DNA of 64,000 bases from assembly GCA_022843125.1 (NCBI GenBank), contig JALHOG010000018.1, positions 1 through 64,000 on the forward strand. Direction: 5' to 3'. A program made the translations under genes and the position numbers. Origin of the DNA: Ilumatobacteraceae bacterium. Lineage in GTDB: Bacteria; Actinomycetota; Acidimicrobiia; Acidimicrobiales; Ilumatobacteraceae. The notes under the pieces are model-generated. The model was not told the origin of the DNA. It made no database searches and saw only the letters and a list, made by a program, of their open reading frames with translations. This document shows, one piece after another, positions 23,218 to 37,684 of this stretch (position 1 is the stretch's first letter; each line of letters starts with the position of its first letter).

Positions 23218-23250
23218 CCGTTCACGTCGTGTCGGACACAACGTGAACGG
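23218..23250. promoter_or_regulatory. Dyad upstream of the 153-aa membrane protein
   Basis: Perfect 10-bp arms CCGTTCACGT (23218-23227) and ACGTGAACGG (23241-23250) around 13 nt that contain a smaller TGT/ACA dyad. It covers about -20 to -52 of the predicted promoter and lies 24 nt after the acyl-CoA dehydrogenase stop. It could be an operator or a terminator. Confidence 0.45.
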
Positions 23251-25884: not shown

Positions 25885-26511
25885 ATGCCGGCTCCGTCCA
25901 CGACGCTCCACTGGTCCAACGCCGATGTCGAGGTGCACCGCGTGGTCGTCGGTTCCTACGACAACAACGTGTTCATCGTTCGCTGCCGCCAGACCGGCGA
26001 GTCGGTGCTGATCGACGCCGCCAACGAGCACGAGTTGCTGCTCGAGCTCTGCCAGCGGCTCGGCGTTCGGCGCGTCCTCGAGACGCACGGCCACTGGGAC
26101 CACATCGGCGCCGTCGCCCAGCTCCGCGAGGCGGGGTACGAGGTCGCCGTCACCGCCGCCGATGCGCCGATGCTGCGCGACGTCGGCTACGACGTCTTCC
26201 TCGACGACGCCGAGGTGATCGAAGTCGGCCGGCTCCGCCTCGATGCGATCCACAACCCCGGTCACACGCCCGGTTCGATCTCGTTCGCGCTCGCCGGAAC
26301 ACCGCTGCTGTTCACCGGCGACACCCTCTTCCCCGGTGGCCCGGGCGCCACGAAGTTCGAGGGTGGCGACTTCGCCACGATCATCGACTCGATCGACACC
26401 AAGTTGTTCACGTTCCCGGCCACCACCGTCGTGCTGCCGGGCCATGGTGTCGACACCACCATCGGCCGTGAGCGCCCCCACCTCCACGAGTGGGTCACCC
26501 GCGGCTGGTGA
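25885..26511 (+). CDS. MBL-fold metallo-hydrolase (glyoxalase II-like)
   Basis: A 208-aa metallo-beta-lactamase fold enzyme. The zinc ligands are ETHGHWDHIGAV (HxHxDH), the second-site His in NPGHTPGS, the bridging Asp in FTGDTLFPGG and the last His in VVLPGHGVDTTIG. That set, together with the TLFPGGPGATKF segment, is typical of hydroxyacylglutathione-hydrolase-like enzymes that use other thiols in actinobacteria. The ATG at 25885 is chosen because TACGAT lies 6 nt upstream; the longer frame from 25714 is a shadow of the divergent methyltransferase. Confidence 0.92.
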   Translation: MPAPSTTLHWSNADVEVHRVVVGSYDNNVFIVRCRQTGESVLIDAANEHELLLELCQRLGVRRVLETHGHWDHIGAVAQLREAGYEVAVTAADAPMLRDVGYDVFLDDAEVIEVGRLRLDAIHNPGHTPGSISFALAGTPLLFTGDTLFPGGPGATKFEGGDFATIIDSIDTKLFTFPATTVVLPGHGVDTTIGRERPHLHEWVTRGW

Positions 26512-26586
26512 TGTGACGAATTGGGTCAGACCCATTCCGTCACGGCCGGGGCGTGGCGGTATGGGGGTGTCGCAGTTCGTCACATC
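26510..26586. repeat. Degenerate copy of the GTGACGGAAT palindromic repeat
   Basis: Outer arms GATGTGACGAA (26510-26520) and TTCGTCACATC (26576-26586) are a perfect 11-bp inverted repeat. The left half contains the 31-nt unit (26513-26543) that recurs at 33.9 and 35.7 kb, and the right half is diverged. It lies between two convergent genes and starts at the MBL stop codon. Confidence 0.75.
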
Positions 26587-33422: not shown

Positions 33423-33875
33423 ATGCCCGGGCTTGAAGACCTCTATCGCGAGATCATCCTCGACCACTACCGCACCCCGCGGAACCGTGGCGAGCTGCCG
33501 GTTCCCCCGGCGCGCCACGCCGAGGGCCACAACCCGCTCTGCGGCGACGAGATCACCGTGTTCCTCGACGTCCAGCAGGTCGACGGGGTCGACGTGGTCA
33601 GCGACGTCAAGGTGAGCGGCCAGGGCTGCTCGATCTCGCAGTCGTCGGCATCGATGATGAGTCAGGCCGTGAAGGGCAAGCCGGTCGCCGAGGTGCGTGC
33701 TCTGGTTCGCAAGTTCAAGGGCCTGATGTCGATCGAGGTCGACGACGCCGGCGCAGCCGACGTCGACGTCCCGCTCGGCGACCTCGAGGCGCTGCAGGGC
33801 GTCGTGAAGTTCCCCGTGCGCATCAAGTGCGCCACCTTGGCCTGGAACACCCTCACCCAAGCCCTCGACTCGTGA
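33423..33875 (+). CDS. sufU: SufU zinc-dependent sulfurtransferase
   Basis: A 150-aa IscU-like SufU. The three conserved cysteines are C40 (NPLCGD, with D42 as the extra zinc ligand), C69 (GQGCSIS) and C136 (IKCATL). The insertion before C136 relative to IscU (LMSIEVDDAGAADVDVPLGDLEAL) is typical of SufU. It accepts the persulfide from SufS and passes sulfur to SufB. GGAG (AAGGAGTGACCG) precedes the ATG. Its TGA (33873-33875) lies inside the first bases of a 72-bp palindrome. Confidence 0.94.
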   Translation: MPGLEDLYREIILDHYRTPRNRGELPVPPARHAEGHNPLCGDEITVFLDVQQVDGVDVVSDVKVSGQGCSISQSSASMMSQAVKGKPVAEVRALVRKFKGLMSIEVDDAGAADVDVPLGDLEALQGVVKFPVRIKCATLAWNTLTQALDS

Positions 33876-33943
33876 CGGAATGGGTCAGACCAACTCCGTC
33901 ACGGCTCGAGCGGTGACGGAGTTGGTCTGACCCATTCCGTCAC
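33872..33943. repeat. 72-bp palindromic repeat, copy A
   Basis: GTGACGGAATGGGTCAGACC at the left end is mirrored at the right end. The whole 72 nt is a palindrome with one mismatched pair near the CTCGAG centre. Each 31-nt half is itself an imperfect palindrome. It is nearly identical to the copy at 35716. The left end supplies the sufU stop codon. Confidence 0.9.
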
Positions 33944-33955
33944 CGCCGACGTCGG

Positions 33956-33961
33956 TACGCT
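33956..33961 (+). promoter_or_regulatory. -10 element, near-leaderless promoter of the thioesterase
   Basis: TACGCT ends 8 nt before the ATG at 33970 and lies just after the palindromic repeat. Confidence 0.45.
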
Positions 33962-33969
33962 CGGTCGCG

Positions 33970-34650
33970 ATGAGCGACGGCGACGCGATCCTCGAGGCGC
34001 GAGCCCGGGCGGGGAAGGCGATTCGCGACATCGGGCACGCCTTCGTCGGCCGACACGCCACGCTCGAGCAGATCGAGCGGCTCGCCCAGACGCTCGAAGA
34101 CATCGGCGACGAGCTCTGGCCGGCCGATCCCCGATCACGCGATGCACGTCCGTTCGCCGAGCAGCAGATCGGGGACTACCCGCAGGGCCGCTTCGAACCC
34201 CGGTTCGACGACCGCCCGGTGTCAGGCCGATCATCGCCGTGGGGGCTCGACATCGCGCTCCACCGGCACCGCGATGAGATCGACGCACGCGTCACCCTCC
34301 GAGCGGCGCACGAGGGCGCACCCAACCGCAGCCACGGAGGCATCATCTCGGCCCTCTTCGACGACGTGTTCGGCTACGTGCTCGGCGTCATCCACCAGGC
34401 TGCGTTCACTGGTGACCTCACCGTGCGGTACCACGCCCCGACCCCGCTCCATCGCGAACTGTCGTGCCGTGTCCGGCTCGACGAACAGGTCGGGCGCAAG
34501 CTGCTGATGGTGGGCACCCTCACCGCCGTCGAGACCGGCCAGCTGTGCGCATCGGCAACCGCGACGTTCATCGCGGTCGACCCCGAGAGGTTCGCCCGGC
34601 TCACCGCCGAGCGCCCGGCCCCTCCCGACGAGGACGCACCGGTCGCGTGA
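33970..34650 (+). CDS. Hotdog-fold thioesterase (PaaI-like)
   Basis: A 226-aa protein. The C-terminal half (about 95-210) is a PaaI/4HBT hotdog domain, with APNRSHGGIISALFDDVFGYVL as the catalytic helix region (the Asp in ALFDDV) and TGDLTVRYHAPTPLHRELSC. The N-terminal 90 residues are helical and not part of the usual domain. Such enzymes hydrolyse acyl-CoA thioesters. With the DNA methylase it forms a two-gene block between the two 72-bp palindromes. The start is supported by a TACGCT -10 element 8 nt upstream. Confidence 0.87.
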   Translation: MSDGDAILEARARAGKAIRDIGHAFVGRHATLEQIERLAQTLEDIGDELWPADPRSRDARPFAEQQIGDYPQGRFEPRFDDRPVSGRSSPWGLDIALHRHRDEIDARVTLRAAHEGAPNRSHGGIISALFDDVFGYVLGVIHQAAFTGDLTVRYHAPTPLHRELSCRVRLDEQVGRKLLMVGTLTAVETGQLCASATATFIAVDPERFARLTAERPAPPDEDAPVA

Positions 34651-34660
34651 TCGATCACCA

Positions 34661-35719
34661 GTGATCAAGTACCTCGGCTCGAAACGCCGGCTCGTCCCGG
34701 TGCTCACCGAGCTCTTCGAGCGATCGGGCGCGCACGCCGCGCTCGACTTGTTCACCGGCACCACGCGCGTGGCGCAGGCACTCAAGCACGCTGGTGGTCA
34801 CGTCACCGCAGTCGACACCGCCCGCTACGCCGAAGTGTTCGCCACGACCTGGATCGAGACCGACGCCGACGCCGTCGACCGCGCAGCGCTGGCAGATGCG
34901 ATCGACGAGCTCAACGCCCTGCCGGGCGAACCGGGCTACGTGACCGAGACGTTCTGCGAACGCTCCCGATTCTTCCAGCCCTTCAACGGCGAGCGGATCG
35001 ACGCGATCAGGGATGCGATCGAGCGCGACCACGCCGGCACGACGCTCCATCCGATCCTGCTCACGGCACTCCTGCTCGCCGCTGACCGCGTCGACTCGAC
35101 CACCGGCGTCCAGATGGCGTACGTCAAGCAGTGGGCGCCGCGCTCCTCCAAGCCGCTCACGCTCGTCGCTCCGGCACTCCTCCCCGGCACCGGCCGCGCC
35201 GTACGCGGCGACGCCGTGGAGCTCGCCGCGTCGCTCGGGTCGTTCGACCTCGCGTACCTCGACCCGCCCTACAACCAGCACCGCTACTTCACGAACTACC
35301 ACGTCTGGGAGACGATCGTCGCGTGGGACCACCCCGAGCACTACGGCGTGGCGTGCAAGCGCATCGACGCACGCGACGACGCGACGAAGAGCGTGTTCAA
35401 CCGCAAGCGCGAGATGCCGGCAGCGCTCGCGGCCACCATCGCAGCCGTCGACGCCGAGGTGACCGTGGTGTCGTACAACGACGAGTCGTGGGTGCCGCTC
35501 GAGGAGCTGCGCGACATGTGCTCGGCCCGCGGTGACGTGGTGGCGCTGGCGTTCGACTCGAAGCGATACGTCGGCGCGCAGATCGGCATCCACAACCCGT
35601 CGGGCGAGAAGGTGGGCGAGGTCGGCCGCCTGCGCAACCTCGAGTACGTGGTGGTCGCCGGCCCGCCGGCGACGGTCGCCCGGATGACCGAACCGTTCGC
35701 CGACCACCGCAGACCGTGA
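34661..35719 (+). CDS. D12-class DNA adenine N6-methyltransferase
   Basis: A 352-aa methyltransferase of the Dam/D12 class. It opens with MIKYLGSKRRLVPVL (family MxKYxGSK box), has the SAM-binding ALDLFTGTTRVAQAL at about 27-41 and the catalytic DPPYN at 201-205 followed by QHRYFTNYHVWETI. It transfers a methyl group to adenine N6 in a DNA motif that cannot be told from sequence. No restriction endonuclease is visible nearby, so it looks like an orphan. The GTG start is 10 nt after the thioesterase stop; three GATC sites lie at the start. Its stop lies in the end of a 72-bp palindrome. Confidence 0.9.
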   Translation: MIKYLGSKRRLVPVLTELFERSGAHAALDLFTGTTRVAQALKHAGGHVTAVDTARYAEVFATTWIETDADAVDRAALADAIDELNALPGEPGYVTETFCERSRFFQPFNGERIDAIRDAIERDHAGTTLHPILLTALLLAADRVDSTTGVQMAYVKQWAPRSSKPLTLVAPALLPGTGRAVRGDAVELAASLGSFDLAYLDPPYNQHRYFTNYHVWETIVAWDHPEHYGVACKRIDARDDATKSVFNRKREMPAALAATIAAVDAEVTVVSYNDESWVPLEELRDMCSARGDVVALAFDSKRYVGAQIGIHNPSGEKVGEVGRLRNLEYVVVAGPPATVARMTEPFADHRRP

Positions 35720-35787
35720 CGGAATGGGTCAGACCAACTCCGTCACGGCTCGAGCCGTGACGGAGTTGGTCTGACCCATTCCGTCAC
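35716..35787. repeat. 72-bp perfect palindrome, copy B
   Basis: A perfect 72-bp palindrome starting GTGACGGAATGGGTCAGACC, with centre GGCTCGAGCC. Its two ends supply the TGA stops of both convergent genes (35717-35719 plus, 35784-35786 minus). As RNA either strand folds into a 36-bp stem or two smaller hairpins. There is no U-tract. Confidence 0.92.
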
Positions 35788-36137
35788 ATGTCGGCGAGCT
35801 CGTCGAGGCGGAGCCGCACGAGGCGCTTCACGAGCACCTTCGGCAATGGGCGGTCGGGGGCGAAGCGCAGCCCACCCTTCGACGTCTCGTACGCGGCGAC
35901 GGCGTCGCCCGCCCGCTCGATCACGGCGCTGCTGTGCGGGAAGTAGCTGCAGTGTCCCTTGAACGCCGCGTACCCGGCGACCGCCTTGCCGCGAACGATG
36001 AACGCCGGCATGCCGTACTTCATCGCCTCGTCCGCGTCCGGCAGGATCGACCGCAACATCGCCCGCATCGCGATCAAGGTCGACCGATGTGGTTCGACGA
36101 CCGCGTCCAGATAGGCGTCGATCGCAGGCGTGCTCAT
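35784..36137 (-). CDS. DUF1801 family protein
   Basis: A 117-aa YdhG-like DUF1801 protein. Diagnostic segments are IDAYLDAVVEPHRSTLIAMRAML, DEAMKYGMPAFIVRGKAVAGYAAFKGHCSYFPH and KGGLRFAPDRPLPKVLVKRLVRLR. The family (related to the Fra/YdhG iron-handling proteins) has no firm function. The ATG at 36137 overlaps the carboxylase stop by 4 nt, so the gene is probably co-translated with it. The frame open to 36671 is a shadow. Confidence 0.87.
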   Translation of the reverse strand: MSTPAIDAYLDAVVEPHRSTLIAMRAMLRSILPDADEAMKYGMPAFIVRGKAVAGYAAFKGHCSYFPHSSAVIERAGDAVAAYETSKGGLRFAPDRPLPKVLVKRLVRLRLDELADM

Positions 36138-37684
36138 GGTCGGTATCCCCAGCTGGGCGGGCCGGGCCGGAGGGTGCGGCGGGCGAGGCGCACCCAATCG
36201 CACAGCATCGGACGTGTGTCGCGCGGGTCGATGATCTGCTCCACCTCGTAGAACTCCGCCGACCGGTGCGGTGACCGCACACGATTGAGCCGCTCCGTGA
36301 TCTCCGCCTTCAGCTGATCGGGTGCATCGCTGGCGGCGAGCTCGGCCTTGTAGGCGACCTCGAGGCCGCCCTCCAGCGGCAGCGATCCCCAGTCCCCCGA
36401 CGGCCAGGCGAGGCGCAGCGATTCGCTCCCCGGCTTGCGGTTCGCGGCGCCGGCGATGCCGAAGGCCTTGCGGACCACCACCGTGCAGTACGGCATCTGC
36501 GCCTCGCGCAACGCCACGAGCACCTCGGTGCCGTAGCGCACGGTGGCGTCCTGCTCGGACTCCTTGCCGATCAGGAAGCCGGGGCAGTCCTCGAGGTGGA
36601 TCATCGGCAGCTTGAACAGCGAGGCGAGGTCGATGAGGCGGGTGAGCTTGCGACACGACGCGGCGGTCCAACCGCCGCCGTACATCGCCGGGTTCTCGCC
36701 ATACACCGCGACCGGGACGCCGTCGAGGCGGGCGAGGCCGCCGATGATCGACGTCCCCCAGTCGCGCCCGATCTCGAAGAAGCTGCCGTCATCGACGATC
36801 GCTGCGATCACGCGCCGCATGTCGTACGACTGGCGCGGATTGCGCGGCACTGCATCGAGGAGCCACTCGTCGCGGCGACCCGGATCATCACCCCAGTCCT
36901 CGACCGGCGGGAGCTCGTCGATGCTCGTCGGCAGGTACGACAGGAAGTGCAGCGCCCGCTCGAACGCCTCGGCCTCGGTGTCGACCGCGTCGTCGATCGC
37001 ACCGTTGCGGGTGTGGATGTCGGCGTGGCCGAGCTCCTCCTTGGAGACCGAGCCGAGGCCCGCCTGCTCCACCAGCGCCGGTCCGGCGATCATCATCTGC
37101 GACGTGCCGCGCACCATCACCGAGTAGTGCGACGCCACCGCACGGGCAGCTCCGAACCCGGCGACCGAGCCGAGCACGAGCGACACCGACGGCGCGACGT
37201 TGAGGTGGTCGACCACGATGTGCCAGCCGGGCAGGATCGGGATGTAGGTGCGGCCGGCCTGCTCGATCGTCTTCACCGAGCCGCCGCCCGACATGCCGTC
37301 GAGCAGGCGGACGTGCGGCAACCGCATCTCGAACGCGATCGCCTCGGACGCCTCGCGCTTGGCCGAGATCGACGCGTCGTTCGATCCACCGCGCACGGTG
37401 AAGTCGTCGCCCGACACCACCGCCGGCCGGCCGTCGAGCTCGGCGATGCCGAACACGAAGTTCGACGGCGTGAAGTCGACCAGGTTGCCCTGCTCGTCGT
37501 AGCGGGCGACGCCGGCGGTCTTGCCGAGCTCCCAGAAGCTGCCGCTGTCGACGATCTCGTCGATCCGCTCGCGCACCGTGAGCTTGCCGAAGTGGTGCTG
37601 CCGATCGACCTTGTCGGCACCCCCGAGCTGCTCGGCGAGCGCCTCCCGCCGCCGCAGCTCCTCCAGTTCCGGCCCCCACGTCAT
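36134..37684 (-). CDS. Acyl-CoA carboxylase, carboxyltransferase (beta) subunit
   Basis: A 516-aa carboxyltransferase of the AccD/PccB/MccB type, with crotonase-like N- and C-domains. The N-domain has HFGKLTVRERIDEIVDSGSFWELG, FTVRGGSNDASISAKREASE and LLDGMSGGGSVKT. The C-domain has YGENPAMYGGGWTAASCRKLTRLIDLA, LPMIHLEDCPGFLIGKESEQ and VVVRKAFGIAGAAN. It transfers carboxyl from biotin to an acyl-CoA. No biotinylated alpha subunit is in the window, so it must pair with one elsewhere. The relatively unusual GESLRLAWPSGDWGSLPLEGG region suggests a methylcrotonyl- or geranyl-like branch, which is uncertain. Confidence 0.93.
   Translation of the reverse strand: MTWGPELEELRRREALAEQLGGADKVDRQHHFGKLTVRERIDEIVDSGSFWELGKTAGVARYDEQGNLVDFTPSNFVFGIAELDGRPAVVSGDDFTVRGGSNDASISAKREASEAIAFEMRLPHVRLLDGMSGGGSVKTIEQAGRTYIPILPGWHIVVDHLNVAPSVSLVLGSVAGFGAARAVASHYSVMVRGTSQMMIAGPALVEQAGLGSVSKEELGHADIHTRNGAIDDAVDTEAEAFERALHFLSYLPTSIDELPPVEDWGDDPGRRDEWLLDAVPRNPRQSYDMRRVIAAIVDDGSFFEIGRDWGTSIIGGLARLDGVPVAVYGENPAMYGGGWTAASCRKLTRLIDLASLFKLPMIHLEDCPGFLIGKESEQDATVRYGTEVLVALREAQMPYCTVVVRKAFGIAGAANRKPGSESLRLAWPSGDWGSLPLEGGLEVAYKAELAASDAPDQLKAEITERLNRVRSPHRSAEFYEVEQIIDPRDTRPMLCDWVRLARRTLRPGPPSWGYRP

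Follow-up and report, generated by a model that had tools for sequence, protein, structure and literature searches.

What are two nearly identical 72-bp palindromes doing on the stop codons of an actinobacterial genome? Both lie in a 64,000-nt stretch of DNA from an Ilumatobacteraceae bacterium (assembly GCA_022843125.1, contig JALHOG010000018.1, positions 1 to 64,000; the whole stretch is called the window below). There they flank a thioesterase-like gene and a DNA adenine methylase gene, and their ends provide the stop codons of genes beside them. An initial annotation, made from the letters of the window alone, proposed a stop-targeted mobile palindrome family and suggested that the pair could move the two genes enclosed by it. 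The reading preferred here, to which we assign a probability of roughly 0.8, is that the palindromes are REPINs (REP doublets forming hairpins), i.e. inverted pairs of a 31-nt repetitive extragenic palindrome (REP). They would be the non-autonomous units of a single REP-associated tyrosine transposase (RAYT), docked at or near native stop codons, with replacement of native sequence at convergent gene pairs.

A repeat family dispersed through the genome

The genome to which the window belongs is a 5.49-Mb draft in 183 contigs, 93% complete. The 19-nt start of the REP has 98 forward and 93 reverse matches in the whole draft (191 with up to 3 mismatches), and the reversed control pattern has 0. 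The family consists of at least 56 elements, comprising 45 inverted doublets of the 31-nt REP and 11 singlets, one of which is truncated near a contig end. Outside this count stand two weak pattern clusters in locus L072 and more divergent copies. The usual doublet is GGCTCGAGCC followed by its inverse. Both arms are identical in 30 of the 45 doublets. Where positions depart from the consensus, 54 of 80 are matched in the partner arm, as against a mean of 7.2 and a maximum of 24 for shuffled arms. This covariation indicates that the two REPs of a doublet spread, or are corrected, together as a single hairpin. Five contigs of the draft (C23, C45, C68, C103 and C143) break within ~215 bp of a copy, and the copy number is thus a lower bound.

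GTGAC is read at 109 of 112 element ends, and a pyrimidine precedes the element at 105 of 110 ends (two with less than 20 nt of flank are omitted), compared with 660 of the 1237 GTGACs in this DNA, counting those of the elements. At least one scored gene ends towards the copy within 150 nt at 49 of the 56 copies, the other 7 being unplaced, and scored genes end towards 26 of the 56 from both sides. With at least 56 copies the family is clearly not restricted to the window. The idea of a mobile, REP-like palindrome family tied to stop codons is borne out by these copies, by congeners that carry the same genes without the element, and by the docking described below.

A search of 61 genomes with up to 2 mismatches gave matches in five of them. 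These are the genome itself (110 matches), the congeners G003 and G004 (1 and 2 matches, to a variant that has GGGGTCAG where the family has TGGGTCAG), and two genomes at a greater distance, each with a single match. At this threshold the pattern was not found in 7 of the 9 congeners. It appears to be a young family that hardly occurs outside this species.

Some details of the arrangement of copies may be added. Seven pairs of copies lie 0.66–2.5 kb apart (in L033, L045, L053, L056, L062 and L071, and 33872/35716 in the window) where even spacing predicts ~1.5 such pairs, an excess that perhaps reflects local hopping. At four places (L043:3155–3170, L045:2410–2417, L064:2685–2700 and L068:2920–2933) partial tandem repeats of the element end are seen just outside the element, for example GTGACGGAT ahead of GTGACGGATTGG, as if a new copy had been joined to the end of an older one.

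Docking on stop codons

Gene ends were scored with a coding model trained on this genome, and those scored above 10 towards elements were counted (n = 75). Forty stop exactly at the terminal TGA of the element, 2 stop inside it, 26 stop 1–6 nt before it and 7 stop farther away. The terminal TGA is used by 40 of the 42 genes whose frame enters a copy, where one third would be expected (binomial P = 3.2e-17). Stricter cut-offs give 37/39 and 35/37. Copies do sit on stop codons, as had been suspected from those in the window.

Native state of the sites in congeners

The native state of docked sites was read from related genomes. Orthologous loci were located in 8 congeners with a chimeric query of 28 C-terminal pieces (G007, at 1.3 Mb, was left out), and the loci used are a chosen sample among the matches listed (110 loci, L164–L273). 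For the 30 docked genes represented in these loci, the median distance to the congener stop is 0 codons in 14, at most 2 in 22, at most 5 in 29 and at most 7 in all 30; these being medians, single congeners may be far off (one at 149 codons, L059). In a control in which a single congener was compared with the others, the distance is at most 2 codons in 112 of 136 cases and at most 5 in 129 of 136. The congeners differ among themselves about as much, and docked genes are therefore hardly more displaced than ordinary orthologues.

Six convergent gene pairs are represented by 23 element-free congener loci. Native gaps at these loci, counted for convergent pairs up to 600 nt apart, range from −4 to 498 nt and are positive at 21 of the 23. 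At the same six sites in the window genome there are 0 nt, or 2 nt in the case of L036, between the element and the gene stops. When the flanks of docked copies are joined, the genes read on for a median of another 25.5 codons (38.5 in the other frames), and stops within 6 codons appear at 7/40 ends versus 9/80 in the other frames, which is no clear excess. If one GTGAC is kept as a target, the opposite gene remains open for at least 13 codons at 8 of the 9 doubly docked sites. A further indication comes from the base ahead of the stop, as a G precedes the TGA at 40 of 40 docked ends versus 17 of the 60 orthologues whose stop is at the same codon. Because so few of these orthologues have the G, and only 5/60 have YGTGAC, this base is probably the element's own. 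Taken as sequence comparisons, these observations suggest that the element probably replaced a native stop-to-stop segment at many sites.

The RAYT transposase

A single Y1_Tnp gene was found in the draft, on contig C45 (G000:C45). It encodes a RAYT of 265 aa. At its 3' end a full family copy supplies the TGA stop codon, and on its 5' side, near the contig end, there is a REP start only. The protein scores 44.5 bits with Pfam PF01797 (Y1_Tnp), above the cut-off. The HUH motif and a candidate tyrosine column, which we take to hold the catalytic residue, are invariant in 8 of 8 aligned RAYTs of the lineage. The palindromes are REPINs of a RAYT system with GTGAC ends in place of GTAG.

Among the records returned, the closest named relative is the RAYT of Ilumatobacter sp. 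MO_167.B34, at 53% identity. In its protein and printed flanks the RAYT locus of that strain is the same as the one in congener G006, and because of this agreement the genus label Ilumatobacter probably applies to the lineage. An AlphaFold model of this 53% identical relative (L084, not the protein of the window genome) has a mean predicted local distance difference test score (pLDDT) of 79, with a poor C-terminal part, and its best PDB match is the E. coli RAYT–REP complex 4er8 (E 4.5e-7). A sequence search of the PDB with the RAYT gave only weak IS200-type matches, the best with an E of 0.027.

RAYT matches occur in 14 of the 61 genomes, its own included. Elsewhere in the lineage at least ten RAYT loci (by eye, among L275–L295) have an inverted repeat of their own on both sides that is private to the locus, and several of these repeats are centred on GTGTCWGACAC or GTGCCWGGCAC. 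Neighbouring species differ in their RAYTs and in their hairpins. The RAYT match of G004 (L280) contains an internal TAG, and that of G026 is in two pieces.

Proposed mechanism

In the mechanism that we propose, the RAYT would act on single-stranded DNA, probably that of the lagging strand. It would recognise the hairpin and join its foot (G-TGAC) to a pyrimidine just ahead of a stop codon. Where two genes converge, the REPIN would take the place of the native stop-to-stop segment, so that both genes would end in its TGA. Systems of this class are known; what is new, and unproven, is the two-sided replacement from stop to stop. A broader proposal can be made tentatively, at somewhat less than even odds. 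The stop-footed hairpins of a RAYT lineage may have been swapped, hairpin for hairpin, into the native stop-to-stop segments (terminators) of convergent genes, in a near-costless selfish spread that would amount to a genome-wide takeover of translational stops and 3' ends, and different RAYT families of the genus may re-occupy the same gene end.

Alternative explanations

Several observations weigh against REPINs docked by replacement. Of the scored gene ends, 33/75 stop ahead of the element. Gene ends also depend on our coding model; a first model, contaminated by antisense frames, gave 46 docked ends and 9 deeper ones and was retrained. The preference for a pyrimidine in the middle of the native codon is weak at the gene level (9/14 versus 4/16, P = 0.06). 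The GTAG/GGAG foot that defines canonical REPs is absent, the ends here being paired GTGAC/GTCAC, and the transposase scores 59.4 bits with NCBIfam NF047646 (REP_Tyr_transpos), below the cut-off of 80. Only 3 of the 23 congener gaps (L173, L175 and L179, by eye) are small hairpins with stops at their feet. Because the congeners are distant, the case for replacement is made from stops and gaps only, and no transposition event was observed in the draft or its comparison with congeners. Of the 16 convergent pairs that carry no element in this genome, 4 overlap and one has a gap of 0; with 5 of 16 touching or overlapping, plain insertion into touching genes is possible site by site. One docked site, L048, fits such an insertion, with extensions of 1 and 6 codons when its flanks are joined.

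These last points bear on clean insertion, with nothing lost, at a target that contains a stop codon (YGTGAC or TGAC, for example), essentially the stop-targeted miniature inverted-repeat transposable element of the initial annotation. Insertion of this kind would also accommodate the near-constant GTGAC ends and the pyrimidine ahead of them, as well as the singlet L062:3064. As 14 of the 159 undocked genes of this genome end in NYG-TGAC, one-sided sites could form in this way. We nevertheless consider it unlikely, given that a single GTGAC leaves the opposite gene open at all but one of the nine doubly docked pairs, and that same-codon orthologues seldom have G before the stop and rarely have YGTGAC. 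Random insertion near gene 3' ends, with selection for an immediate in-frame stop and later deletion of the native intergenic remnant, is a little less unlikely, but is also disfavoured. It would require two later deletions ending exactly at the element edges wherever docking is two-sided, and it fits poorly with a median agreement with native stops that is exact in 14/30 genes and within 2 codons in 22/30. What speaks for it is that most copies (49/56) have a gene ending towards them within 150 nt, and that the length changes of docked genes are small. Lastly, the hairpins could be bidirectional terminators of the host homogenised by gene conversion, with the RAYT as a bystander. The convergence of genes on 26/56 copies, the covarying arms, the very stable RNA hairpin and the three stop-footed hairpins in congener gaps are all compatible with this explanation. 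It is improbable, however, as the pattern is absent from 7/9 congeners and present in the two others only as 1 and 2 matches to the variant, the repeat brackets the RAYT just as other RAYTs of the lineage have repeats of their own, and a U-run terminator was not found in 33700–36200.

Relation to known systems

Stop-docked REPINs have several relatives in the literature, compared here on the available parts of the papers cited. Like the REPIN/RAYT systems of Pseudomonas and the bacterial interspersed mosaic elements (BIMEs) of E. coli, the family consists of dispersed, hairpin-forming inverted REP doublets together with a RAYT flanked by the same REPs. It differs in having GTGAC/GTCAC at both feet instead of the known 5' GTAG foot, in its near-perfect 72-bp palindrome and in its Ilumatobacter-like actinobacterial host (PMC3116915). 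REPINs are described there as replicating doublets. REPs tagged with GTAG/CGTC also occur between convergent genes, in most cases no more than 20 bp from either 3' end (PMC3733652). The ends of GTAG REPs often supply TAG stops, whereas here one or both ends supply the TGA of GTGAC at the native stop position. The available part of that paper does not compare 3' stop positions with those of REP-free relatives, as is done here. The TIRtrons/TIRYTs of the same paper comprise a tyrosine transposase flanked by GTAG-free terminal inverted repeats (TIRs), some with GGGGWSAS and some forming dispersed families with dimers. TGGGTCAG fits 7 of the 8 positions of GGGGWSAS, a motif of some TIRs only; the family here is docked on stops and has at least 56 copies. 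The IS200/IS605 elements (IS608, ISDra2) have the HUH/Y1 fold in common with the RAYT, but here the repeats are dispersed without the gene, of which one copy was found.

Other properties of RAYT systems are relevant to the mechanism and to its possible consequences. TnpA-REP of E. coli cleaves between C and T, and the tetranucleotide of the foot sets the cleavage site in one Marinomonas system but failed to do so for two others (PMC8266576). The RAYT-like subclasses 2.1 and 2.3, of those numbered 2.1–2.8, are reported without REPs (PMC6006769). REPs of E. coli within 15 nt of a stop codon stall ribosomes, as cited in PMC12306157, and REPs are found closely behind the stop codons of RAYTs (PMC2817692). 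No publication on this family is among the literature matches listed for GGGTCAGACC (titles and starts of abstracts, in a limited collection). In the same limited collection nothing was found that joins REPs with stop codons and convergent genes, or REP-associated tyrosine transposases with Actinobacteria.

The family bears on how REPs enter compact genomes and survive there. It offers a direct way of testing whether REPs insert at stop codons or replace what was there: its ends are not GTAG, a single cognate RAYT goes with it, and congeners show the native state of dozens of its sites. For annotation it is also a warning, as the ends of many genes in genomes of this kind may consist of mobile-element sequence.

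Other hairpin families and turnover of sites

A second REP family (CGTTCACGTTGTGTCAGACACAACGTGAACG; loci L296, L300, L304, L308, L312, L316, L320 and L324) is represented by 29 matches to its core pattern in the window genome, 109 in G006 and 86 in G002 (both strands), and a variant copy of it lies in the window at 23220–23250. A second Y1_Tnp gene was not found in the draft of the window genome; in G006 a RAYT is bracketed by the second-family core (L289). In the loci read from the window genome, G006, G002 and G009, stops are often near the second-family hairpin and docking is looser. G009, a genome of one contig, has 19 places with a GTTGTGCCAGGCACAAC-type core (L298–L322), and several of the seven that were read are near gene ends. 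The RAYT search found none in this genome, and its core family has possibly outlived its transposase. A GTAAC-ended family in G002, with 16 matches spread over 11 places, is too small for statistics. Its TAA ends a gene at three places, of which one has a coding score of only 11 and one is the RAYT itself.

Odd palindromes are present in the 100 nt past orthologous stops in 6 of 137 cases versus 90 of 3000 random windows. Replacement of one REP family by another at a given site is therefore not a general feature. Re-occupation of a site was seen by eye in two cases, the L048 site in G006 and the DNA 3' of the methylase in G003.

The palindromes and genes of the window

The pattern GTGACGGAATGGGTCAGACC has ten matches in the window with up to 3 mismatches, compared with 0.00 on average in 100 dinucleotide shuffles. 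Copy 1 (33872–33943, no strand assigned, as for all three palindromes) consists of two inverted 31-nt REPs (GTGACGGAATGGGTCAGACCAACTCCGTCAC) separated by a 10-nt spacer that contains the only mismatch; its arms, 33872–33907 and 33908–33943, are 97% complementary. Copy 2 (35716–35787) is a perfect palindrome between the convergent methylase and DUF1801 genes, with spacer-free arms of 36 nt each (35716–35751 and 35752–35787) that are 100% complementary. The two copies are 99% alike across 73 nt, and the RNA of copy 2 has a predicted folding energy of −73.2 kcal/mol (z −14.4). The coordinates and symmetry originally given for both copies are upheld by the arm comparison, the shuffles and the fold. 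Within 33700–36200 the search for classical intrinsic (U-run) terminators found 0. In a third, degenerate copy a single REP is recognisable (GTGACGAATTGGGTCAGACCCATTCCGTCAC, 26513–26543), and the partner half has decayed (26549–26586).

The first of the neighbouring genes is sufU (33423–33875, + strand), which encodes an Fe-S scaffold protein (TIGR01994, 147.6 bits) and whose stop codon, TGA at 33873–33875, lies inside copy 1. It is followed by the hotdog-fold thioesterase-like gene (33970–34650, + strand; PF03061, 23.2 bits), which is kept as a neighbour of sufU in five congeners, and by the D12-class DNA adenine methylase gene (34661–35719, + strand; PF02086, 117.8 bits), whose TGA at 35717–35719 lies inside copy 2. 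The stop codon of the DUF1801 gene (35784–36137, − strand; PF08818, 46.5 bits) lies at 35784–35786, inside the other end of copy 2. The initial annotation was right that sufU, the methylase gene and the DUF1801 gene each take their stop codon from a GTGAC end. It also had the degenerate copy begin at a stop codon, but there the TGA (26509–26511) lies one base ahead of the GTGAC and outside it.

It remains to ask whether the two palindromes move the genes between them. They are 1.77 kb apart, and the six other close pairs of the genome show comparable spacing (0.66–2.5 kb), which is what such a composite mobile cassette has in its favour. The order sufS–sufU–thioesterase–methylase is, however, kept in congeners G002, G003, G006, G008 and G009, and the palindromes are absent from the locus in all five. 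Four of these genomes lack the palindrome pattern altogether, and in G003 it lies on another contig. A sixth congener, G001, has the same genes with ~6.4 kb of extra DNA between sufU and the thioesterase gene. The enclosed genes are thus not missing from the empty sites, as those of a composite transposon would be. The palindrome-free gene order in the five congeners, which the initial annotation had itself named as the result that would speak against its cassette, rules the cassette out for practical purposes. Most likely the thioesterase and methylase genes were neighbours before the hairpins arrived, and the palindromes are later, separate arrivals, one per neighbouring gene end, with nothing carried between them.

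The ends of the two docked genes can be followed in the congeners. In six of them sufU is longer by 0–6 codons than in the window genome. The distance from sufU to the extrapolated start of the thioesterase gene is 33–81 bp in five congeners, and in the window genome 26 bp remain after the element. The methylase gene ends within 1 codon of the same place in 8 of 8 orthologues. In G003 the DNA 3' of this gene includes a stretch that matches, by eye, the repeat beside that genome's own RAYT, and the methylase gene end was for this reason apparently occupied twice, independently. Close proximity of the D12 adenine methylase gene to sufU is itself conserved in five congeners.

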